A stretch of 48,131 bases of DNA from Opitutales bacterium (lineage in GTDB: Bacteria; Verrucomicrobiota; Verrucomicrobiia; Opitutales; UBA953). The position numbers and the translations under genes are program-made. Below are positions 26,170 through 37,498 of the stretch, one piece after another. Every line of letters starts with the position of its first letter. The stretch's first letter is position 1. The stretch covers positions 1-48,131 of the forward strand of contig JAFYWY010000084.1 in NCBI GenBank assembly GCA_017546455.1. The letters are read 5' to 3'. The notes under the pieces were generated by a model. That model saw only the letters and a list, made by a program, of their open reading frames with translations, ran no database searches and was not told the DNA's origin.

Positions 26170-26568
26170 TTAATCGGAAAATCCCTGCAAAAATCGGGCA
26201 AGACGTTCCCGATCTAAATCCGTTCCGTCCTTTTCGTGGTAATAAATTTCAACAAAGTGGACCGTTCCCGCCGATTCATCGAAAACATAAATCGCGCGCA
26301 AGCCGCTACACACGCCCTTGTTCTTCAAGGATTTACAGGCGAACTTTACAACTTTGTAAGACAAGCGGGGTTTGGGGCAAAATCCTTCGATTTCGATGCA
26401 CGCCCCGTTGTCGATTTTTCGGAGATGTAAAAGCTCAATCGCCGCCCTTTTCATCAACGCGAAATCCTCATCAAGCGTCCGAAAACGCTTTTTCAGGCGC
26501 TTAAAATCACGCTGAAATTCGGGTGTTTCCCTATATATCAGCACTCCCGCCGCTTCGTTATTCGTCAT
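26170..26568 (-). CDS. RelE/ParE-type toxin of a toxin-antitoxin pair
   Basis: A 132-residue protein resembling RelE/ParE-superfamily toxins, many of which cut mRNA on the ribosome. It begins MTNNEAAGVLIYRETPEF and has basic FQRDFKRLKKRF, then CKSLKNKGVCSGLRAIYVF, where the conserved arginine of the family lies, and ends with FVEIYYHEKDGTDLDRERL. The start at 26566-26568 overlaps the end of the antitoxin gene by 11 bases. The frame is open further upstream to 26688, but that part lies inside the antitoxin and is not family-like. It is the second gene of the pair, after the antitoxin. Confidence 0.82.
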   Translation of the reverse strand: MTNNEAAGVLIYRETPEFQRDFKRLKKRFRTLDEDFALMKRAAIELLHLRKIDNGACIEIEGFCPKPRLSYKVVKFACKSLKNKGVCSGLRAIYVFDESAGTVHFVEIYYHEKDGTDLDRERLARFLQGFSD

Positions 26569-27322
26569 ACTGGCGAACCGAGGTTTCCGGCGTGCGGTAA
26601 AAGGCGCTCTCGTAGTCGATCGGCTCGCGCTCTTCCGCGATAATCCACGGTACGTCCTTGTGCGAATAATCGGAAATTTCCCGCGCATTCATTCCCGCAT
26701 ACTTGCGGAGGCAATCATCAATGTGAGCGAGTTCCCGCGCCGAAAACCGGCTCAAATCCGCGTCGCGATGCGGCAGATACTTCGTTTGCTCCTTGGTAAA
26801 ATACTTATCCTTAACAACGGAAAGCTCGTTCCCGCGCTCCATTTCCTGTGTAATTTTTGCGAAATCCACAGGCGTCGGCCCAAAGGTGTTTTTGATGTAT
26901 TTGGCGCCGATCAATTGCTCTTCGAACTTCTCGTAATAATCGAAATCAATGAAATAAAGTAGTTTATAAAGCACGGTTTGCCCGATATTCGGGCGTGCTC
27001 CCACACGGCTCAGAACGTAGAGCAAAACCTCTTTGAACTTTTCAAGGTTCTCCTGCGGAATCGAAATGCGAATTTCCTGCGTTGCCGCAGGCGTTCCCGC
27101 ATTTGCCTGAACATCGTAGGAATAAGTTTTCGGCGCGGTATCGTTGATGATGCAGTCGCAATCGACTTCAAAAAGCCTCGCCAAAGCCGCCACCTTTCCC
27201 GCCGGGATATTGGCAGGATTTTTCTCGTAAGCGATCAGCGTCTGCTTAGAAACGCCAATTTCCCCCGCAATCGCCTCCTGCGTATAACCGGATTCCAAAC
27301 GAAGATTTCTCAGCGTACTCAT
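26558..27322 (-). CDS. Panacea (SocA/DUF4065) antitoxin with N-terminal HTH
   Basis: A 254-residue protein with two parts. Residues 1-55 form an XRE-type helix-turn-helix (LRLESGYTQEAIAGEIGVSKQ), likely used for autorepression. Residues about 100-225 form a DUF4065/Panacea domain: LYKLLYFIDFDYYEKF, then YIKNTFGPTPVDFAK, and later SARELAHIDDCLRKYAGMNA. Panacea is known as an antitoxin domain that pairs with many unrelated toxins. Here the partner is a RelE-like protein, translated from an 11-base overlap. The gene begins the island next to ruvC. Its upstream region holds AT-rich palindromes (27353-27402). Confidence 0.85.
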   Translation of the reverse strand: MSTLRNLRLESGYTQEAIAGEIGVSKQTLIAYEKNPANIPAGKVAALARLFEVDCDCIINDTAPKTYSYDVQANAGTPAATQEIRISIPQENLEKFKEVLLYVLSRVGARPNIGQTVLYKLLYFIDFDYYEKFEEQLIGAKYIKNTFGPTPVDFAKITQEMERGNELSVVKDKYFTKEQTKYLPHRDADLSRFSARELAHIDDCLRKYAGMNAREISDYSHKDVPWIIAEEREPIDYESAFYRTPETSVRQYDE

Positions 27323-27352
27323 AATGCCTCGAATCTACCCGCCACCCCACCA

Positions 27353-27402
27353 AAAGTAAAATATTTTTTAATACTTAAATTTAAATATATTTAACCCTTT
27401 CA
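27353..27402. promoter_or_regulatory. AT-rich palindromes upstream of the antitoxin gene
   Basis: AAAGTA..TACTTA (27353-27377) and TAAATATATTTA (27391-27402) are inverted repeats close to the antitoxin start. They are candidate operators for its HTH domain. AT-rich DNA makes chance palindromes common, so the call is weak. Confidence 0.3.
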
Positions 27403-27477
27403 AGAGATACAGAAACCACGAATAAACACAAATAATCACGAACAAATAAAAAGGTCTGCACCGCTTTTAAGCCAAAT

Positions 27478-27972
27478 ATGCAGGAAACAATCATCGGAAT
27501 CGCAATCGGAAGTTTTTTCACCGTCATCGGCGTCATCGCTCAGGGGTTTGTCACTTACTTCTTAGAAGGCAAAAAGCTACGAGTGCAGGCAAAAATTTCA
27601 AAGGAATGCTCTCTAAGAGAAAAAAGAGAAGCTGCATATAAAAAATTTATGATTTTTCAGGCACAACTGATATCCGCTCATTCGGTTCAGCGCGAATCTC
27701 TAAAAAATCCGCAACTTTATGTAGCGTTATCCGACCCGACTTCATCAAGCACAGACTTCAAACAAATTTTAGCCAATGTCATAAATCGGCTCTCGGAAAC
27801 ACTTTCAGATATCTCCCTGTACGGGAATTGGGATACGGCAGAACGATGTGCAATGTTCTTCGGGTGCCTCAACGAATCTTATAAAAAAACGGACGAAGAC
27901 TTTGCGGCACTGCTAAAAGAATACGATAGCATCGTCTTGAAAATGCGAAAAGATATCGGCATTCCGGAATAG
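27478..27972 (+). CDS. Small membrane-anchored protein of unknown function
   Basis: A 164-residue protein with one membrane segment near the N-terminus (residues about 4-29, IIGIAIGSFFTVIGVIAQGF) and a soluble helical domain of 130 residues, probably cytoplasmic, with coiled-coil tendency (RVQAKISKECSLREKREAAY). I do not recognise a family. Similar one-pass helical proteins are common in defence islands but their roles differ. It is divergent from the Panacea antitoxin gene and convergent with the GIY-YIG gene, which ends 8 bases away. AT-rich codon use sets it apart from the housekeeping genes. Confidence 0.75.
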   Translation: MQETIIGIAIGSFFTVIGVIAQGFVTYFLEGKKLRVQAKISKECSLREKREAAYKKFMIFQAQLISAHSVQRESLKNPQLYVALSDPTSSSTDFKQILANVINRLSETLSDISLYGNWDTAERCAMFFGCLNESYKKTDEDFAALLKEYDSIVLKMRKDIGIPE

Positions 27973-27979
27973 CGGGGAG

Positions 27980-28600
27980 CTATTTGCCGGATTCACGCTC
28001 CCGACGAAGAGTGCTAAGTGTCTTTCCTTTATAAGTGAAATATTTCGGGCCTTGGTAAGCGCCCGAAGAATTTAGCTCGGACTCCGGCATGAACGTTCCC
28101 GTAAACGCCGAAAGTGTATAAAGTCGACCTTCGTATTCGACGTGCTTCTCGCTTGCTACCGTTACCTCTATTTTGGCAGGCTCAAACGTGACTTTCTCGC
28201 CAATCTTAACACCTGCCATACTAAATTTAAACGGCGGACGCCTTGGCGCATGTTCAGGTTCTTCTTCTCCGGAAAACAGTTTAATCTCCGCATCATCAAG
28301 CGTGGATGCGGCATCTTTTAATATTTCAAATGCCAACTGCGGAGAAACATTGAAAAACTCCCGATTTTGCCGAATCCGTAAATCCGTCAGGCGATCAATC
28401 ATCTTATGAATTTGTTTTTCAACCAAATGATATTTCGAGGTTTTGAGCGTCGCAAAAATCTCAAACGGAAGCGGAACCGCCGTATTATCTAATTCCTTTG
28501 AACGCACATCGACCGGACGGGAACTTTTCCCAATTTTTACCCAATCTTCCCGAAAACTCGGATTCGTCAAAATGTAAACGTAGCCTTTTTTGTCGTTCAT
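27980..28600 (-). CDS. GIY-YIG nuclease (T5orf172-like)
   Basis: A 206-residue protein whose first 110 residues form a GIY-YIG nuclease domain of the T5orf172 type: GYVYILTNPSFREDWVKIGK (residues 6-25; the GIY and YIG motifs appear as VYI and KIG), R28 and R33 nearby, and an E-rich helix with HLVEKQIHKMI. The last 90 residues are a separate beta-rich part (VTFEPAKIEVTVASEKHVEY, YKGKTLSTLR) that I cannot place. It probably cuts DNA; the target is unknown. The gene lies 13 bases after the end of the reverse transcriptase reading frames on the same strand, so it is likely the third gene of an operon. Confidence 0.8.
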   Translation of the reverse strand: MNDKKGYVYILTNPSFREDWVKIGKSSRPVDVRSKELDNTAVPLPFEIFATLKTSKYHLVEKQIHKMIDRLTDLRIRQNREFFNVSPQLAFEILKDAASTLDDAEIKLFSGEEEPEHAPRRPPFKFSMAGVKIGEKVTFEPAKIEVTVASEKHVEYEGRLYTLSAFTGTFMPESELNSSGAYQGPKYFTYKGKTLSTLRRERESGK

Positions 28601-28613
28601 AATGATTTAAATT

Positions 28614-28919
28614 TCAATGAATTTCACAAGGGTATCCATTATTGTGCTTTTTGAACAACCTATCCATTGCATTCCTCAGATTTCCCTCATACTCTTTCTG
28701 GATGATAAAAGAATCATGCACAGGCAAGACAGGAATACCTTGTTTCGCAAATTCTTCAAGTATCTCCAGTGCAATGATAGAATCTTTATTCTGAAGTCTC
28801 ACGCCACAATCACTTCCAAAATATTTCTCAATGGGTTTATGATGTTTTTTTATCTCATCAACTAAATCCTTAAATGTGTTGCCTTTTTCTCTTCCTCTCA
28901 TCGTCTTGATCGCCGACAA
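28614..28919 (-). CDS. C-terminal fragment of the RT-polymerase protein, in the shifted frame
   Basis: This 101-residue frame lies directly after, and out of frame with, the reverse transcriptase ORF, overlapping it by 22 bases. Its first codon is TTG and it has no start signal of its own. It carries IPVLPVHDSFIIQ (residues 62-74), which looks like motif C of family A DNA polymerases (the HDE/HDS loop with the second metal-binding aspartate, D69). RLQNKDSIIALEIL just before it matches the helix preceding motif C in that family. It continues the polymerase-like domain begun at residues 720-829 of the upstream ORF. Reading through needs a -1 shift at the six-G run at 28937-28942, or one extra base in it. 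Confidence 0.75.
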   Translation of the reverse strand: MSAIKTMRGREKGNTFKDLVDEIKKHHKPIEKYFGSDCGVRLQNKDSIIALEILEEFAKQGIPVLPVHDSFIIQKEYEGNLRNAMDRLFKKHNNGYPCEIH

Positions 28920-31423
28920 AAGAGAAGCATCTTTATCCCCCCTAAATACTGCTCTAACTCCTTCTCTTTAAAACAAACTTCGTTTAATGCAGCCTCCTCG
29001 GTTCTGCTATTAATTAAAACCAGCACCAAATGTTTGACGAGCGGAACCAACTCCGGCTCCGATTCCATAAAATCATAAATTTTCTCAGGAACATTCATTT
29101 CATTTTCCGCATAAAGCATTGCAATGTGCATCCCTGAAAAATCTAGTTCTACAGTCTCTTTTCCATCTATTTTAATGCTCTTTCTGATATCTGACGGTAA
29201 GCTTTGGTAACTGATTCCATTCCCTCCGGTAGAATACAATCGCCCACCACAATCCCACGAAGCCCTATTAAAAATAGCTTTAAGGGCTGGATAAAAACAT
29301 ATCTGTTTTTTTAGGTGAGGAGATTTGTACGTAAACTTAAATTCTTTATAGAATGCATTAAGAGTGCTAAGCACTTCTTGATACCTTCCCTCTTTTTCAG
29401 AATGAAATCGTATCTTGCATATCCTTTTATCTGTCAGCCTCAACTCAACGAAATAATCATCTTGCACCTCCCAAGGTGCCACGTCCTTTCCAAATAAATG
29501 GAAATGCTCATACAATTTCTCCTTAGCCCAATAGGATGAAAGGCGGCCTTTCTCTCCTGCACTAGGTCTTCTTCCAAGCCGTTCTCCCACGTAGTTATTG
29601 TTCCTCATCCAATCTAAGAGCAAAAGGAATTTTGAATTTTTAAACCTCTCTCTTGGCACAGAAATATTTGAATTTGAAACAAAGCCTAAAAATAAATTTC
29701 TCAAAAGTAGCCTTAAACAACGCTCTCCCTCCTCCGCGTCAAGCCCCACAAACTCTCTCTCTGCTAGCCTCCAAATCTCTTTCGAAAGCGCGATTGCTCT
29801 CTCGTCATCATAATCCCTACCTTCCAAATTTATGTGCATTGTCTTGCTATTTGGAGATACTTTAGCGCGTATTTCTTCGTCAGAGAGAAGGAAAGATATT
29901 CTTTTCTTCTTTAGCGCCACCCACTGATCTTTAAATTTGTTTTTTCCGGAGTCGATTTCCTCGAGATCCGAATCGCCTAATGCCTCGTACACAAAAACCC
30001 AGTAACGATCAAAATCACGGTTCAACAAATCCTTCGCCAAATCCGTGTATTTGTCTTGCTCACTCTTTAACTGAAATCGTACGGAATACCTCCATGCCAA
30101 TATCAATAAAACACAGTCTCCGGAGTTTTTTATACGGTCAAAATCTACCTTTGATAGTCTAAATCCATACTTAAGAGCGTAATAAATAGAAGAGCTTGCC
30201 GCTTCGTAATTTCGAACCTTCATGGCAAGCTCATACATTTTCCAGGAAAGCGTACGGATATCCCCGACCTCTACATCAAAAGGCTCAAATAAATTTTTAT
30301 CTAAAAGCGGGAAAATATAGGGGTAAAGATGAGATAAATGAAATATCGTTTTTATGTAATATTCTCGACCATGGGAATCAGCCGAACGTTCTCGAATCGC
30401 TTTCATTGCATAATTGATGATCGCGCTATTCTCTCCGTTGTTTTTAAAAAGCAGTACAACTTTGTTCACGAACGCCTGCAACCGACCTTTTTCAAAACGC
30501 TTAGACAGACAAAACGCTAAAAAGTCATTAATTTCATTCACCCATGACTCAGGCCGCATCAACGGAAGTTCTATTATCTCCGTTTTTTTGTGATTTAAGG
30601 ACAACCCATACTCACGTAATGCTTCCCTCAAACTCACCAAAAACCGCTCCGCCTCGTCGCGGCTTTTCGCATAAAACGAATAATCGTCAATATTTCGAAA
30701 ATAATTCACCTCGCCGTCATGGTTTTTCCGCAAGCTGGCGTCTACCGCCACGAGAATTATTTCGGAAAGTAGGTTTGAAACATGAGGCCCAATTAAAAAA
30801 CCATTTGTTTCGTTGTTTTTTATATACCGAGACAGTTTGTCTAACTCGTTATACCATTCCTTCTTACTTCTGCTATTCTCTTTCGCGATCTCTTTCCCGA
30901 CGAGAGCCCATGCAAGGGCGTGAGAATACATGCTCGGAAAGCAATTTGAAATATCCGCTTTAACTAAATATTTCGCTCCGATTCTAAGATCTAATTCCGG
31001 ATAATCATCTGTACGATGATTTTTATAATTCATCTCAAATATGCGTTTCTTCCCTTTAATTCTTCGCAGATGAATTTTGCTTACCTTGTGAGAGTCTTCT
31101 TCTGTTTTTTCCTTAAAATGTGCAACAATCCTGTTCCAATTATCTTTAACACAGCGGACTAAATTATGGTACGCAAACGGATTAGGAATCCCCATGACAC
31201 GGGGAACATTCGTATTCCGAATACTTTCATAAACGATATAGCTACATTTTTCTTCTGGGAAAGAAGGCTCGTTCCTTTCCCTAAAAGCTTCCTCAAATCG
31301 ATCAGACCTAAAAACTGGAGGTAGCTTTTCGGGGAATAATCCGTAGCCAACAAGTCCCGTATAAACATCCCCGGAACTTAACGCCGCCAATGCCTTTGCG
31401 TAATCGCTTAAATTCTTATTCAT
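28898..31423 (-). CDS. Reverse transcriptase fused to a family A polymerase-like domain (frame interrupted)
   Basis: This 841-residue ORF starts at MNKNLSDYAKAL. Residues 70-285 are a reverse transcriptase palm: KYLVKADISNCFPSMY (metal-binding D157), GFLIGPHVSNLLSEI (208-222), the catalytic box YFRNIDDYSF (D246, D247), and GLSLNHKKTEI. These resemble the Abi/UG group of defence RTs; a group II intron maturase part is absent. Residues about 290-640 are a helical region without known motifs. From 720 comes a second polymerase-like part: RLYSTGGNGISYQSLP, then VELDFSGMHIAMLYAE (D761, like motif A of DNA polymerase I) and LVKHLVLVLINSRT. The frame is lost after residue 829 at GGGGGG and stops 12 codons later. 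With a -1 shift the protein would be about 936 residues. The gene is AT-rich compared with its surroundings. It starts 11 bases after the MmeI-like gene. Confidence 0.85.
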   Translation of the reverse strand: MNKNLSDYAKALAALSSGDVYTGLVGYGLFPEKLPPVFRSDRFEEAFRERNEPSFPEEKCSYIVYESIRNTNVPRVMGIPNPFAYHNLVRCVKDNWNRIVAHFKEKTEEDSHKVSKIHLRRIKGKKRIFEMNYKNHRTDDYPELDLRIGAKYLVKADISNCFPSMYSHALAWALVGKEIAKENSRSKKEWYNELDKLSRYIKNNETNGFLIGPHVSNLLSEIILVAVDASLRKNHDGEVNYFRNIDDYSFYAKSRDEAERFLVSLREALREYGLSLNHKKTEIIELPLMRPESWVNEINDFLAFCLSKRFEKGRLQAFVNKVVLLFKNNGENSAIINYAMKAIRERSADSHGREYYIKTIFHLSHLYPYIFPLLDKNLFEPFDVEVGDIRTLSWKMYELAMKVRNYEAASSSIYYALKYGFRLSKVDFDRIKNSGDCVLLILAWRYSVRFQLKSEQDKYTDLAKDLLNRDFDRYWVFVYEALGDSDLEEIDSGKNKFKDQWVALKKKRISFLLSDEEIRAKVSPNSKTMHINLEGRDYDDERAIALSKEIWRLAEREFVGLDAEEGERCLRLLLRNLFLGFVSNSNISVPRERFKNSKFLLLLDWMRNNNYVGERLGRRPSAGEKGRLSSYWAKEKLYEHFHLFGKDVAPWEVQDDYFVELRLTDKRICKIRFHSEKEGRYQEVLSTLNAFYKEFKFTYKSPHLKKQICFYPALKAIFNRASWDCGGRLYSTGGNGISYQSLPSDIRKSIKIDGKETVELDFSGMHIAMLYAENEMNVPEKIYDFMESEPELVPLVKHLVLVLINSRTEEAALNEVCFKEKELEQYLGGIKMLLFCRRSRR
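28937..28942 (-). other. Six-G run at the frame break of the RT gene
   Basis: On the coding strand TTA GGG GGG ATA gives a short dead end, while a -1 slip after GGG GGG gives GAT AAA GAT and continues into the motif C fragment. One inserted G would do the same. Programmed slippage, phase variation, mutation and sequencing error all fit. Confidence 0.8.
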
Positions 31424-31434
31424 AGCAATTTTCT

Positions 31435-34227
31435 CTACTGTGGTTTCCGTTTGCGGGGAGAAGGTTTTGGCGTCGCGGGTGCGAGTGGGGTAGCGGCGGA
31501 TTCGTAGAGGGCGAAGAGGAATTCGACGCGTTCGCGTTCGGAAGCGAAAGGTTCTTTTCGGTAGAGTTTGTCGACAGATTTGTCGAGTTCACGGTGCGCG
31601 CGGAGAAGGTCGCCAGGCATCGTAAGCGGGTCATATAAATCGGCGAGAGAGCTGCCCTGCCCGTCGATATAGATTTTGCGGATGTCCAAGATGTTCTGTG
31701 CGAGAGCCTCGATTTTTTCGCGAGTTTTCGCGGGAACGTCCGTCGGCCAAACAAAGTTGTTGTAAACGATTCCTGCCGAATATCGATAGCGGCTTTCCAA
31801 GCGTCCGCAAACTTGGCGCATCCACGCGTTGTGCATCGCCGATGTCAAAATCCCGAAGTGGTAAAGCGTCGCATCAGGAATGATTTGAACCTGATTTGTC
31901 GGAATCGTGTTCCCGTCGAGATACGCCATTGGCAAATATTCGCGCCGCTCGGAAGAAACCATCGGAAGTGCGATGTAATTTTGAGGATTGTTAGTATCGC
32001 GGAAAACGGTCGGAGTGTCTGCAAGTTTTCTCGTTCCCGCGTCTTTCATTGCCAAACGGCGTTCCCGACAAAGAACGACGCGCTCCATAACGAGAGAATC
32101 CTTACGAATCTCTGCGGGATTTGCACCGACAAGCCAAAGAACGTAGCGTTCCTCATTGTGAAGGAGCTCGCGCCCTCCGATAAGTTTTTTAACAAACTTA
32201 CAGTCTTTAAACTTCGGGAAATCTTCCTGCTCAATTTTAAGCGCGTCTCCGTCAAGGGGAACATTCCCGTTGAGCATCTTGGGAACCTTGCAAATCGGAG
32301 CTGAACGAATAGGCAACGCAACGTTCGGGGCATCAATCAGATAGCCGTTAATATTTTTGACGGTAAAAGAAGTTATCGGTCCCGTCAAATCCGAGGTTTC
32401 GTAAATTGTTTTTACGGGAACGTCAAAAAGTCCGAATCCGATAATCACAACATGGACATGAGCTTTCCCGCTTGCCTCGCTCTGCCAAGAAAACGTGTTG
32501 TAGGCAAAATGTATTTTCACACCCATGGAAAAGAGTTCGGACCAAAGCGCATTAACCTGCTCGCCTTGCGTAATGGAGTTTGTGGCAACAAATCCGACAC
32601 AAATTTGCGTTCCTGCGATAAACTGTGCGGCCTTTTTATACCAACACGCGACATAATCAATGTCTTTATACGAGAAAAACGAAGCAACTTCTTTTATTTG
32701 TTCCGGCGTGCGGTAGCGACGCCCAGCGAACGGCGGATTCCCCAGAATGTAGGAACATTTTTCGGGAGAAATAATATTTCCCCAATCGCTTGTGAGCGCG
32801 TTCCCGACGTGGATGTTGGGCGATTTTTTGAGCGGAATGCGCACATAGAGTTCTCCGAAAATCAGCGAGAGTTGCTGATTCATTTTATGGTCCATCAGCC
32901 AGAGGGAAACTTCGGCAATGCGGGCAGGCCATTCTTCGAGCTCGATTCCGTAGAATTGGTCAACATCGACTTTGCTGAAAAATTGGAGAGCAATGCGTTC
33001 TTTTTCCTGCGCATAAATCTCTCTGAGGATATCAATTTCGAGCAAGCGGAGCTCTCGATAGGCGATGATGAGGAAGTTCCCGCAACCGCAGGCGGGGTCG
33101 AAAAACGTGAAGGTCGGAAGCTTGGCAAGCAGATTTTCCAAGCGTTGTTTTCTCCGGGAAGAGCGATCGTTTTTCGCAGACTCAAATTCGGAGCGGAGAG
33201 CGTCGAGGAAAAGCGGGCGAATGAGTTTGAGAATATCGGCTTCGGAGGTGTAATGGGCACCCAGTTCGCGGCGAGTTTTGGCATCCATGATGCCTTGAAA
33301 AAGCGAGCCGAAGGCGGCGGGGGAAATGGCGGCCCAATCGAAATTTGCGCATCGCAGGAGGCGTTCCCGCATGGTACGGTTGAGATCGGCGAAGTTTAAT
33401 TTTTCGGCGAAAAGTCCGCCGTTAACGTATGGGAACGCGGCAAGGTCTTCGTCGAGGTTGGCTTGGCGTCTTTCCGGCGGAGTATTTAAAAGCTGAAAAA
33501 GGCGAGCGAGGCGCACTCCGAGATCAGAGCCGTCTTCGTGCGTTTTGTTTTCGATATAGAGTTTGAAAGAGTCGCGCTCAAAGATTCCTGTATCATCCGC
33601 AAAAAAACAGAATAGGATGCGAACGAGAAAGACCTCAAGGTCGTGCCCGCCGTAGCCGGATTTTTCGAGTTCGATGTGCAAATCGCTCAAGAGCTTTACC
33701 GCCTTGAGGTTAACGGGGGCTTCGTCGTGGTGGCGATACTGTTTGTAGCCCGGAATGAAGGCAAAGAGATGGACGTTTTTATGGAAATCCTTGAGCTCGA
33801 ATTCGTACTCGACAACGTGGGATTTGTCGATGAGCGGAAGCGCGCTATCGTCCGGTTCGAGGTCAAAAAGCTTAATGCGCTTATAGTCGGAAAGAATAAC
33901 GTAGCGCGGACATTCGTCTCCGCGCCCTTCGTTACAAAGCGCCTGAATATAGTCAAAGGCTTGGCACTCGGCTTTATCAAAACTTTTGCCGAGAGATTTG
34001 TGCTCAACAAGAACCGTTCCTTTCCAAAACAGGTCTATGAAGCCGTAGTCTCCGGAGAGTTTTCTGACGGGTTCTTGGAAAGAAGCGACAGTTCGGCGGC
34101 GAATTCCGAATACATCGAAAAAGTCGTTCCAGAACGAAGCATATTCAGCGGATTCTCGCGCTTCACCTTCCCATTCGCGGGAAAACTTGATGGCACGTTG
34201 GCGGATTTCGTTCCAAGATAAAGGCAT
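31435..34227 (-). CDS. MmeI-type fused restriction endonuclease-methyltransferase
   Basis: A 930-residue single-chain restriction-modification enzyme of the MmeI (type IIL/IIG) class, close to MmeI itself in length (about 919). The N-terminal nuclease motif is IDLFWKGTVLVEHK: D65, nine residues, E75, H, K77, exactly the D-X9-EXK spacing of MmeI. A helical spacer (about 170-370) follows. The adenine methyltransferase part has FFDPACGCGNF (375-385) for AdoMet binding and NPPF (497-500) as catalytic motif IV. Residues about 590-860 form the target recognition domain, which sets the DNA sequence, and a C-terminal helical part ends in a basic tail. Such enzymes methylate one strand and cut about 20 bases away. 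The RT gene follows 11 bases downstream. Confidence 0.92.
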   Translation of the reverse strand: MPLSWNEIRQRAIKFSREWEGEARESAEYASFWNDFFDVFGIRRRTVASFQEPVRKLSGDYGFIDLFWKGTVLVEHKSLGKSFDKAECQAFDYIQALCNEGRGDECPRYVILSDYKRIKLFDLEPDDSALPLIDKSHVVEYEFELKDFHKNVHLFAFIPGYKQYRHHDEAPVNLKAVKLLSDLHIELEKSGYGGHDLEVFLVRILFCFFADDTGIFERDSFKLYIENKTHEDGSDLGVRLARLFQLLNTPPERRQANLDEDLAAFPYVNGGLFAEKLNFADLNRTMRERLLRCANFDWAAISPAAFGSLFQGIMDAKTRRELGAHYTSEADILKLIRPLFLDALRSEFESAKNDRSSRRKQRLENLLAKLPTFTFFDPACGCGNFLIIAYRELRLLEIDILREIYAQEKERIALQFFSKVDVDQFYGIELEEWPARIAEVSLWLMDHKMNQQLSLIFGELYVRIPLKKSPNIHVGNALTSDWGNIISPEKCSYILGNPPFAGRRYRTPEQIKEVASFFSYKDIDYVACWYKKAAQFIAGTQICVGFVATNSITQGEQVNALWSELFSMGVKIHFAYNTFSWQSEASGKAHVHVVIIGFGLFDVPVKTIYETSDLTGPITSFTVKNINGYLIDAPNVALPIRSAPICKVPKMLNGNVPLDGDALKIEQEDFPKFKDCKFVKKLIGGRELLHNEERYVLWLVGANPAEIRKDSLVMERVVLCRERRLAMKDAGTRKLADTPTVFRDTNNPQNYIALPMVSSERREYLPMAYLDGNTIPTNQVQIIPDATLYHFGILTSAMHNAWMRQVCGRLESRYRYSAGIVYNNFVWPTDVPAKTREKIEALAQNILDIRKIYIDGQGSSLADLYDPLTMPGDLLRAHRELDKSVDKLYRKEPFASERERVEFLFALYESAATPLAPATPKPSPRKRKPQ

Positions 34228-34436
34228 AGTTTATGGGTAGTTGAGATTCGATTTTCGAGTGATATTGAACGACTTTCCCGACGAGTTTTCAAAAGGAAAA
34301 CGAAATCAACCTCGCAGACGCACAAGCTCCGAAGAACGCGTATGCCTTTTGTCTTTCTTCAATCGCGTTTTACGAAGATACCAATAGTTTCGCTACGTTT
34401 CCGCATCTCCGACATTCCAATACTCCTATCGACTCA

Positions 34437-35570
34437 TCAATAGATTTCTTTTTGTTCAGGGATGTTTACGAGCGGGGCGCAAACGTAGAGCGCGCCCTTT
34501 CTTCCGGCGGAAGGCTCAATGCAGCGGACAATTCCCATTTTTTCAAATTGAGCGACCAGTTGCATCAAGGCAATCCGCGAAGGCCCTTTTAGCAATTTGA
34601 GCGAGGAAATGCGAAACACCGGCGTTGCCACAATGGCATCCCAAAGCGAAATTGCATGTTGCGAGCGCGTATTTTCCAAAATCCGTTTTTTCGCATCTCG
34701 GTAATACGATTGAATTTTTTCGGCGATGCCGAGATTTTCTTCCGCCTGGGCGGCAACGGCTCGAGCAAAAAAACGCACCCACGCCGTCCAATCCCCGTTT
34801 TTCGTAATCCCGAGGAGCGCATTTTTATACTTCGGCTCGAAGCGCTCCAAATAACGGCTGAGGTAAAACATGGGCGCGGGAAGAACGCCCTTACTGAAGA
34901 AAAACAGCGGAAGAAGCATACGCCCCAAACGCCCGTTCCCGTCGCAAAACGGATGGATAATTTCAAACTGCGCGTGAACGATTGCCGCCTGAACAATCGG
35001 GTCTTTTTCCGTTGAGGCAAGATACGCCGCCCAGTTATCCATAAGCGCGGGAACGCACAGCGGATCCGGCGGGATAAATCTCGCATTTTCGATACCGCCA
35101 AGCTCGGAACCGATGTAATTCTGAAGTTCCCGGAATTTTCCCGGAGATTTGTCTTCCCCGCGAACAGAATCCAGCAAAACGCGATGCAGTCCCTTGAGAA
35201 AATCCAGCGACATCGGGCGCCGTTCCAATTCCGCCACGGCATAATCCATCGCCTCACGATAATTGAAAACTTCGCGAAGATCATGCTTTTCGGACTCGTC
35301 TCTGGCGGCATCCCCTGCCTCCGAGCGCAAAACCGCAACCGTATCGACCCGCGTTCCCTCAATCCGATTGGAGCGGACAGCTTCGTCACGAAAGAACGGA
35401 GAAAGCAAGAGGCGCGGATTTTCCGTTGCGTAGAGCAATCCGGCGTATCTCGCCAAAGCCCGATTCGCTTTCCCCAAATCCTCAACCAGTTCCGACCAAT
35501 TTAATGTTCCTTCCGGGAGCGGAAGCGTCATCGGATCGGTTGGAACATACTTTTTCTTTTCTCCGTCCAT
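34437..35570 (-). CDS. Fic family protein with winged-helix C-terminus
   Basis: A 377-residue Fic protein; most Fic enzymes transfer AMP from ATP to a target protein. The active-site motif is complete: HPFCDGNGRLGR (206-217). The inhibitory helix motif lies N-terminal to it (SNRIEG, 67-72), which makes it a class II, self-inhibited Fic. Residues 1-90 form the Fic_N domain (DPMTLPLPEGTLNW). The last 80 residues look like a winged helix (SLWDAIVATPVFRISSLKLL and MQLVAQFEKMGIVRC), suggesting DNA binding. The ATG at 35568-35570 (MDGEKKK) is preferred over the upstream ORF start, whose 32 extra residues are hydrophobic and AT-encoded. Four palindromes precede it (35635-35763). Confidence 0.9.
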   Translation of the reverse strand: MDGEKKKYVPTDPMTLPLPEGTLNWSELVEDLGKANRALARYAGLLYATENPRLLLSPFFRDEAVRSNRIEGTRVDTVAVLRSEAGDAARDESEKHDLREVFNYREAMDYAVAELERRPMSLDFLKGLHRVLLDSVRGEDKSPGKFRELQNYIGSELGGIENARFIPPDPLCVPALMDNWAAYLASTEKDPIVQAAIVHAQFEIIHPFCDGNGRLGRMLLPLFFFSKGVLPAPMFYLSRYLERFEPKYKNALLGITKNGDWTAWVRFFARAVAAQAEENLGIAEKIQSYYRDAKKRILENTRSQHAISLWDAIVATPVFRISSLKLLKGPSRIALMQLVAQFEKMGIVRCIEPSAGRKGALYVCAPLVNIPEQKEIY

Positions 35571-35634
35571 AGAATATGATTTTTTAAAGAAAACTAAAAA
35601 AAACACTTTTTCAATAAGAAAAACCAAACTTTTC

Positions 35635-35763
35635 TTATAACAAACACAATTTGTGATAATCTCCACAAGCGATAAAATATTTTGCTATAAGCAAAACCGC
35701 AATTTCCTTATCACAAATTATTTTGTGATAAGCAGAGTTTACACAAAAAAGTTTGTGATAAGG
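35635..35763. promoter_or_regulatory. Array of palindromic operators upstream of the Fic gene
   Basis: Four sites stand in 129 bases. TTATAACAAA-5-TTTGTGATAA is at 35635-35659. TTTTGCT-3-AGCAAAA is at 35680-35696. CTTATCACAAA-4-TTTGTGATAAG is perfect at 35707-35732. TTTACACAAA-4-TTTGTGATAAG is half degenerate at 35738-35762. Shared half-site: TTTGTGATAA. They lie 65-193 bases upstream of the Fic start. The winged helix of Fic is a candidate binder; this is inferred. Confidence 0.7.
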
Positions 35764-35785
35764 AAAATGCAGGTTTCATTTGCAC

Positions 35786-35818
35786 AAAAAAACGTTCCCG
35801 CGAGTGAACACGGGAACG
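35786..35818 (-). terminator. Rho-independent terminator of the fumarase gene
   Basis: CGTTCCCG (35793-35800) pairs with CGGGAACG (35811-35818), followed on the minus strand by a T run (35786-35792). A heptad array (35822-35851) separates it from the stop codon, as after the PEP-CTERM gene. Confidence 0.9.
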
Positions 35819-35821
35819 CTC

Positions 35822-35851
35822 TTTAAGCCTTAAGCTGTAATCTTTAAGCTC
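35822..35851 (+). repeat. Heptad array after the fumarase gene
   Basis: Units TTTAAGC, CTTAAGC, TGTAATC, TTTAAGC and TCTTATT run without gaps up to the stop codon of the fumarase gene. Confidence 0.7.
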
Positions 35852-37498
35852 TTATTTCGATGCCATCGGGCAGACGGGCTTGATTTGCTTGAAGAAGTCG
35901 TTGCCTTTGTCATCGACGAGGATGAACGCCGGGAAGTTTTCGACTTCAATCTTCCAAATCGCTTCCATGCCGAGTTCCGGGTATTCGACGCATTCAATCG
36001 ACTTGATATTGTTCTGCGCGAGAATAGCAGCCGGACCGCCGATGGAGCCGAGGTAGAAGCCGCCGTGCTTTTTGCACGCATCCGTCACCTGCTGGCTACG
36101 GTTGCCCTTGGCAAGCATGATGAGCGAACCGCCGTTGGCCTGGAACAGATCGACGTAGGAGTCCATGCGTCCCGCCGTCGTCGGCCCCATCGAACCGCAA
36201 GCCATGCCTTCCGGCGTTTTTGCCGGGCCCGCGTAGTAAATCGGGTGATCCTTGATGTACTGCGGGAGTTCTTCACCGCGGTCGAGGCGTTCTTTCAGCT
36301 TCGCGTGCGCGATGTCACGGCCGACGATGATGGTACCGTTGAGCGAAAGGCGCGTAGCGACCGGATACTTCGACAGCTCGGCGAGGATTTCCGGCATCGG
36401 GCGGTTGAGGTCGATTTTGACCGCGTTGCCTTCGCCGGCCTGGCGCAATTCTTCCGGAATGAGTTCGCCCGGATTATCGTCGAGCTTTTCAATCCAAATA
36501 CCGTCCTTGTTGATTTTGCACTTGATGTTGCGGTCTGCAGAGCAGGAAACGCCCATGCCGACGGGGCAGCTTGCACCATGGCGCGGGAGACGGACGATGC
36601 GCACGTCGTGGACGAGGTATTTTCCGCCGAACTGGGCGCCGAGGCCGATGCGGTGGGCTTCTTCGAGGACTTGCTTTTCGAGTTCGACGTCGCGGAAGGC
36701 GCGGCCGTGTTCATTTCCGGTCGTCGGCAGTTCGTCGTAGTAATGCGTCGAAGCAAGCTTGACCGTGAGCAAATTCTTTTCCGCGGAGGTGCCGCCGATA
36801 CAGAATGCAACGTGGTACGGCGGGCAAGCAGCCGTGCCGAGCGTCTTCATTTTTTCGACGAGGAACGGAACGAGGGTCTTCGGATTCAGGAGCGCTTTCG
36901 TTTCCTGATAAAGGTAGGTTTTATTTGCGCTTCCTCCGCCTTTCGTCACGCAGAGGAATTTGTATTCCATGCCTTCGGTGGCTTCGAGGTCAATTTGTGC
37001 GGGAAGATTGCAACGCGTGTTCACTTCGTCGTACATATTGAGCGGCGCGTTCTGCGAGTAGCGCAGGTTTTCTTCCGTGTAGGTCTTGTAAACGCCGAGT
37101 GCGAGCGCTTCTTCGTCGCAATAGCCCGTCCAGACCTGCTGGCCTTTCTCGCCGTGAACAATCGCCGTTCCCGTGTCCTGACAGAGGGGGAGCTTACCCT
37201 TGCAGGCAACTTCCGCGTTGCGCAGGAACGTGAGCGCGACGTACTTGTCGTTTTCGCTGGCTTCCGGGTCGGAAAGAATTTTTGCCACCTGCTCGTTGTG
37301 CGCACGGCGGAGCATGAAGGAGACATCGCGGAACGCGGCGTTTGCCATCGCGGTCAGGCCTTCCTTGGCGACCTTGAGAACGGGAACGCCCTCGAATTCG
37401 CCGACGGAAACGTAGTCCTTCGTGAGCAGATAATACTCAGTTTTGTCTTCCCCGAGCGGGAACGGGTGTTGGTATTTGAAAGGAGGAATATTTGCCAT
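35852..37498 (-). CDS. fumA: Fumarate hydratase, class I (iron-sulfur)
   Basis: A 548-residue class I fumarase, which interconverts fumarate and malate in the TCA cycle using a labile 4Fe-4S cluster. The three cluster cysteines are C106 ([10 protein letters not shown]), C225 ([10 protein letters not shown]) and C319 (VSCSADRN), one residue off from C105, C224 and C318 of E. coli FumA. The N-terminal alpha and C-terminal beta parts are fused, as in E. coli. [20 protein letters not shown] and [17 protein letters not shown] mark the C-terminal domain. It is transcribed alone, with its own terminator. It marks the end of the defence island; the housekeeping genes resume here. Confidence 0.95.

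Follow-up and report, generated by a model that had tools for sequence, protein, structure and literature searches.

Gene layout at the locus

The analyzed window, 48,131 bases long, corresponded to one entire contig. A gene on its minus strand was found to encode a DRT4-like reverse transcriptase (RT) that continued, in frame, into most of a TV-Pol-like polymerase, and the remainder of the polymerase was located in a second, overlapping frame (Table 1). The main ORF and the second frame were read through as one protein of 936 aa for the searches. The gene was closely flanked on both sides, by the gene of a type IIG restriction-modification enzyme and by a T5orf172/MUG113 gene, the latter of which was also recognized as the PADLOC defense candidate PDC-S57 (E 2.5e-66).

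Table 1. Positions of the fusion gene, its parts and motifs, and the adjoining genes in the window
Feature	Position	Strand	Remark
Previous gene, MmeI-like type IIG restriction-modification enzyme	31435..34227	-	11 bases upstream of the fusion gene
Main ORF, 841 aa, ATG start	28898..31423	-	DRT4-like RT, then in frame most of the TV-Pol-like polymerase
DRT4/UG15-type RT with C-terminal helical region, residues 1-513	29885..31423	-	PADLOC Drt4 E 9.2e-181
RT catalytic Asp157	30953..30955	-	
RT active-site box Ile-Asp-Asp, residues 245-247	30683..30691	-	Context FRNIDDYS
Linker between RT and TV-Pol, residues ~514-549	29777..29884	-	Approximate boundary; end of the Drt4 profile and start of the alignment to stand-alone TV-Pols
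TV-Pol N-terminal domain, residues ~550-705	29309..29776	-	Approximate boundaries; alignment and models
Template-hairpin Arg728	29240..29242	-	Context GGRLYS; family-invariant
Motif A, ELDFSGMHIAMLY, residues 759-771	29111..29149	-	Catalytic Asp761
Fingers signature RxxxK, here VPLVK, residues 793-797	29033..29047	-	Arg replaced by Val, Lys retained
Run of six G	28937..28942	-	Reading frame shifts by -1
Second frame, remainder of the polymerase	28614..28967	-	Open from 28967
Second ORF, 101 aa	28614-28919	-	Other frame, overlapping the main ORF
ATG of the second frame	28899-28901	-	ATGA overlap with the main ORF stop codon
Motif C, LPVHDSF	28707..28727	-	In the second frame
Next gene, T5orf172/MUG113 (GIY-YIG-like)	27980..28600	-	13 bases downstream; Pfam E 5.5e-13

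Other genes of the same neighborhood were also assigned. A SoFic-like Fic protein was encoded at 34437-35666 (PADLOC E 4.6e-99), and the related genome G149 had only a part of the Fic gene. A protein with an HTH and a SocA/Panacea antitoxin-type domain was encoded at 26558-27322 and was followed by an overlapping ORF of 172 aa (26170-26688) that had no family match; these two likely form a toxin-antitoxin pair. No tRNA genes were detected in the whole 48,131-base window.

The reverse transcriptase part

The N-terminal part of the protein was matched by the PADLOC Drt4 profile over almost its full length (query residues 7-513, profile positions 4-501 of 506). The score reached 600 bits, and the values for Drt6 and UG30 were 295 and 198 bits, respectively. 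The UG9 and UG10 profiles gave 48.6 and 41 bits against the 600 bits of Drt4, so the RT belonged neither to the UG9 group nor to DRT7, and no primase domain was matched by Pfam in the fusion protein. A solved UG15 chain, 21ou_A, was recovered by phmmer (E 1.7e-44, residues 33-481). All catalytic aspartates of the RT (D157, D246 and D247) were present.

The initial annotation, made from the sequence alone, had described complete RT motifs in this part (D157 and I245-D246-D247-Y248). These were confirmed, with a Pfam RVT_1 match of E 4e-12. The resemblance to Abi/UG defense RTs proposed there held as well and could be narrowed to a DRT4/UG15-like enzyme (Drt4 E 9e-181). The NCBIfam Drt4 equivalog cut-off was not reached (378 bits vs 450); therefore, the RT half was considered DRT4-like rather than a textbook DRT4.

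As in DRT4 (UG15), the RT domain was followed by a C-terminal helical region, and UG15 chains matched residues 33-481. However, the known DRT4 is a single RT of about 540 aa, whereas here approximately 420 more residues with a second polymerase were present. The closest RTs of the same order were about 520-550 aa long and ended at about the position beyond which the window protein carried on.

A DRT4-like RT gene of a related genome (L150:3048-4487) was found to have genes for a KAP NTPase and a DUF413 protein on its flanks.

The polymerase part

The C-terminal part was not recognized by Pfam (no DNA_pol_A match), PADLOC or NCBIfam. When joined across the two frames, it was matched by PHROG 4756, a family of unknown function, with an E-value of 8e-46. 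In their motifs, N-terminal domain, host range and mobile-element context, the relatives agreed with the description of TV-Pols, the polymerases of mobile elements and phages whose signatures were described by Iyer, Abhiman and Aravind in 2008 (PMC2579912). PHROG 4756 thus appears to correspond to the TV-Pol family of 2008, as judged by a comparison of motifs, domain plan and host taxa rather than of the 2008 sequences themselves.

The family alignment consisted of 102 rows, i.e., the window sequence and 101 other members. The motif C His-Asp pair and the residues Asp761, Arg728 and Lys797 were invariant in 101/101 of the other members; the hairpin R728 was kept in the window, and D761 was found within ELDFSGMHIAML. 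The glutamate of motif A in DNA polymerase I is Glu710 (PMC7581432), and the equivalent position was occupied by His in 95/101 members. Two residues of the fingers were replaced in the window, namely D781K (Asp in 93/101 members) and R793V (Arg in 98/101 members), and due to these changes the window polymerase was regarded as derived from the TV-Pol family rather than as a textbook member of it. Lysines at both of these columns were found in intact relatives from mobile elements (L003/L018 and L036). Judging from the alignment, the fingers Asp and Arg seem to change in concert, and losing both would not by itself be proof of decay. The joint replacement of the fingers Asp and Arg in L003, L036 and the window also hints at a direct contact between the two residues.

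The fold was analyzed by using an intact relative, L018, for which an AlphaFold model with a pLDDT of 87.5 was obtained. All of its Foldseek matches at E<=0.001 (47/47) were family A DNA polymerases or a mitochondrial RNA polymerase, and VIA Z values of 11.5-13 were recorded to Taq, Bst, Klenow, apPol and T7 RNAP. The truncated polymerase half of the window, when folded alone, yielded a pLDDT of 73.6, no polymerase match and weak winged-helix matches. Its N-terminal domain was partly winged-helix-like in the model, with weak PadR/TFIIE-like matches. The search of the family profile against PDB chains gave chance matches only; therefore, the polymerase assignment rests on the motifs, the PHROG match and the fold.

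The motif A (D761) and the motif C VHDSF in the next frame, both of which had been read by the initial annotation, were present. The palm was of the DNA polymerase I-like type, as had been suggested, but not of Pol I proper, since no Pfam DNA_pol_A match was found; it was of the TV-Pol type. Similarly, the profile search and AlphaFold modeling that had been recommended as a check supported the assignment for the intact relative, but the truncated half of the window alone matched no polymerase. Like TV-Pols, the window polymerase had the hairpin Arg, the motif A Asp-x-x-x-x-His, the Lys of RxxxK, the motif C His-Asp and an N-terminal helical domain, and the family-A/T7 RNAP fold was seen in the intact relative. 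Unlike them, it was fused to an RT and located in a defense island without a recombinase, its fingers Asp and Arg were replaced, and its motif C was out of frame. Altogether, the identification of the two domains as a DRT4-type RT and a TV-Pol-like polymerase is made with high confidence.

Most relatives of the polymerase part stood alone, as proteins of about 420-520 aa. Phages contributed 74 records, among them ICP1 gp100 and records of Aeromonas phages, and further relatives occurred in two plasmids, Lentisphaeria, many Alphaproteobacteria, other bacteria and integrase-bearing elements. The window shared 40% identity over 205 columns with the relative L003 and, in a tree built from the polymerase core, grouped weakly with Lentisphaeria elements (support 82). 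Scans of viral contigs with single proteins yielded no close relatives, and a further known domain fused to stand-alone TV-Pols was not matched by Pfam in any of nine proteins, most of them long.

Two peculiarities of the stand-alone genes were recorded. An overlapping gene of ~296 aa with no Pfam match preceded the TV-Pol gene in two loci (L018:6328-7218 and L021:8253-9140), and its product is possibly a partner protein. The TV-Pol genes of L008, L010, L015 and L016, which belong to two related genomes (G092 and G200), were interrupted by TAG codons only, as though these elements decoded TAG as an amino acid.

The frameshift before motif C

The shift of -1 (equal to +2) occurred within TTA GGGGGG ATA. 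Motif A and the hairpin arginine were in the main frame and motif C was beyond the shift, hence the polymerase was split as assembled: both catalytic aspartates (of motifs A and C) were encoded, but in different frames. The initial annotation had treated the frames as joined, which they were not in the assembled sequence.

It is possible, though we would not call it probable, that the polymerase half is dead or dying. The 841-aa product would then be a DRT4-like RT carrying a truncated appendage that binds DNA (winged-helix), and any defense would come from the RT alone. The main ORF ends ahead of motif C, and the model of the truncated half gave weak winged-helix matches instead of a polymerase match, both of which are consistent with such a loss. 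So are D781K and R793V and the fact that the aligned stand-alone TV-Pols are single open frames, with no conserved shift at the six-G site. However, the window retained 27/30 strongly conserved columns, including 12/12 beyond the shift; therefore, any loss of the polymerase half would have been recent. In addition, the fingers changes need not mean decay, as two intact mobile-element relatives share the D-to-K together with an R-to-K replacement.

The conserved residues ran on without loss across a single homopolymer, which also agrees with an assembly or sequencing error in the six-G run, in which case one continuous gene of about 936 codons would be present. We find this doubtful: a run of six bases is short for an indel error, and the other conserved window genes examined had full family matches, so the assembly was not generally poor. 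An error of this kind concerns the state of the gene and not its function, and it is compatible with the explanation of a two-polymerase defense protein.

Finally, the shift might be used by the cell, either through programmed -1 slippage on GGG GGG, as a run-length on/off switch, or through coupled re-initiation at ATGA, with the split palm being reassembled. P-site slippage on the G run would yield the correct frame, and a AGAAGGAG stretch was located upstream of the run. Yet the site was not a classical slippery heptamer, the RNA around it was no more structured than shuffles (z -0.37), and no shift was conserved in the relatives. The stop of ORF 1 overlapped an in-frame ATG of ORF 2, but an ATGA overlap would arise by chance in about one case in four. 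A used shift was rated as quite improbable.

Origin and distribution of the fusion

The junction of the RT and the TV-Pol part was in frame and far from the contig ends. It fell after a complete DRT4 and before a TV-Pol that was complete with its N-terminal domain. The GC content was 0.398 in the RT part and 0.397 in the TV-Pol part, while 0.45-0.61 was measured in other genes: 0.447 in the downstream gene, about 0.50 in the restriction-modification and Fic genes, and 0.57-0.61 in two chromosomal genes. The matching low GC suggests that both halves arrived together.

The fusion gene was situated in a fumarase-adjacent region (window 26170-37498; L184-L187), in which the defense genes differed between species of the genus. 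In G504, this region carried a type I restriction-modification set together with a KAP-type candidate (PDC-S20), whereas G175 had a type IIG enzyme there and G149 a type III methyltransferase with a cytosine methyltransferase; only ~2 kb separated the fumarase gene and a homologue of window 27474-27770 in G457. The region is a defense hotspot. The fusion was not found in any of the four genus relatives (G504, G175, G149 and G457).

The search for a second fusion was negative in every set that was covered. A scan of 84,980 species with the conserved pattern of TV-Pol returned 119 relatives, the best 80 of which were examined, and none of these 80 had a DRT4-like RT beside the TV-Pol. Neither did the TV-Pols at 14 loci of viral contigs, and no TV-Pol was present at the DRT4-like loci examined. 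Among 170 loci compared, both parts occurred only in those from the window's own genome. No second fusion was detected in overlapping samples of 387, 273 and 197 related genomes, and no match covering 80% of the query was obtained for DRT4-like RTs in plasmids and phages. A description of a DRT4-TV-Pol fusion was not found in the literature that could be searched. As no second fusion was found, the architecture lacks evolutionary support beyond one genome.

Such a singleton could have arisen by accident, if a mobile element with a TV-Pol had inserted at the end of a DRT4 gene that was already there and a chance read-through had joined two proteins with no joint function. TV-Pol genes usually travel with recombinases, a homologue of which was found within the fetched flanks in 55/89 TV-Pol loci. 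However, eight recombinases from TV-Pol elements had no homologue in the whole window. The equal GC of the halves, unlike that of the neighbors, and the position of the junction between two complete units also speak against an accident, which we consider unlikely. The fusion has probably originated and been passed on as a single gene whose halves act jointly. The architecture is real and unusual; it is known from one example, with a frameshift in the second half. In this gut-type bacterium, the fusion may be a novel means of making defensive DNA, or else a singular case in decay.

Proposed function and relation to known systems

It was proposed that the locus encodes a two-polymerase defense protein, in which a DRT4-type RT is C-terminally fused to a TV-Pol-like polymerase that had been acquired from a mobile element; we regard the chances of this explanation as even. 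DRT4 is described in reviews as an enzyme that makes random, protein-primed ssDNA without a template, the 3' end of which is protected by a phage protein (PMC13213688, PMC13314766). Upon phage infection, the RT part of the fusion would synthesize DNA in the untemplated manner reported for DRT4. The TV-Pol part, as an enzyme that extends primers and possibly also primes, would then copy the RT strand into a duplex, which is the simplest joint reading, or extend this strand, and the product would be a more stable toxic DNA. In the initial annotation, RNA copying or priming by one part and DNA extension by the other had been put forward as possible; the published activity of DRT4 is untemplated ssDNA synthesis with protein priming. 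The reverse order, with the TV-Pol acting first, is also possible. A duplex-making step by the TV-Pol half, suggested by analogy with known systems, is given slightly less than even chances.

Two-strand synthesis has been described for other defense RTs. The duplex is made by two RTs in DRT3 (PMC13174585), and in DRT7 an RT is joined to a second DNA-polymerizing domain in one chain (PMC13213688, PMC13174585). Iyer et al. argued that TV-Pol and prim-pol substitute for one another in mobile elements and proposed their functional equivalence (PMC2579912). We tentatively suggest that a template-independent RT and a family-A-type polymerase-primase might be combined in one chain that makes a random strand duplex, which would be the third independent two-strand DRT route after DRT7 and DRT3. 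In such a chain the TV-Pol would take the place of the PrimPol, by analogy with the replacement proposed for mobile elements.

The occurrence of two palms in one chain had been called unusual in the initial annotation. Both were indeed present in one gene, but the combination of an RT with a second DNA-polymerizing domain was already known from DRT7. The fusion resembles DRT7 (a UG10 RT with an archaeo-eukaryotic PrimPol) in having a defense RT and such a domain in one chain. It differs in the RT group and in the second polymerase, which is an AEP in DRT7 and an unrelated, family A type enzyme in the window.

Further, a comparison was made with CcPol-MP of SCCmec, for which de novo DNA synthesis and priming on ssDNA have been reported and which is cited as a TV-Pol relative (PMC7581432). 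Both are family A polymerases of mobile-element type, and CcPol-MP has DNA priming activity. However, CcPol-MP has no RT, its priming needs a separate SSB-like partner, and it retains Glu at the motif A position where TV-Pol family members have His.

DRT4 was described as making toxic ssDNA alone, and a DRT4 with its own second-strand polymerase would, if true, differ from it. It would become testable whether duplex synthesis is a repeated solution among defense RTs. An enzyme of mobile-element replication would have been recruited into immunity, and a functional handle would be gained on PHROG 4756, a family listed without a function although it is present in well-studied phages such as ICP1 (gp100).

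A pairing of an RT with a family A polymerase is also found in the UG9 systems, where the polymerase gene is PRK14975 or DNA_pol_A. PRK14975 is a family A exonuclease-polymerase. UG9 RTs co-occur with PRK14975 in 94% of cases (PMC8934634). The defense setting is shared with the fusion, whereas the UG9 pair consists of two overlapping genes, contains a UG9 RT and has a Pfam-recognized DNA_pol_A rather than a TV-Pol. The two-gene pairing of an RT with a family A polymerase was thus known before (UG9 RT; PMC8934634), and what is new is the DRT4-type RT, the TV-Pol-type polymerase and the merging of both into a single reading frame. One UG9-type locus was observed in a genome of the same phylum (G015; L194:6104-9479), in which the RT gene overlapped a DNA_pol_A gene, with genes for a type I S subunit and an Mrr-like nuclease coming next.
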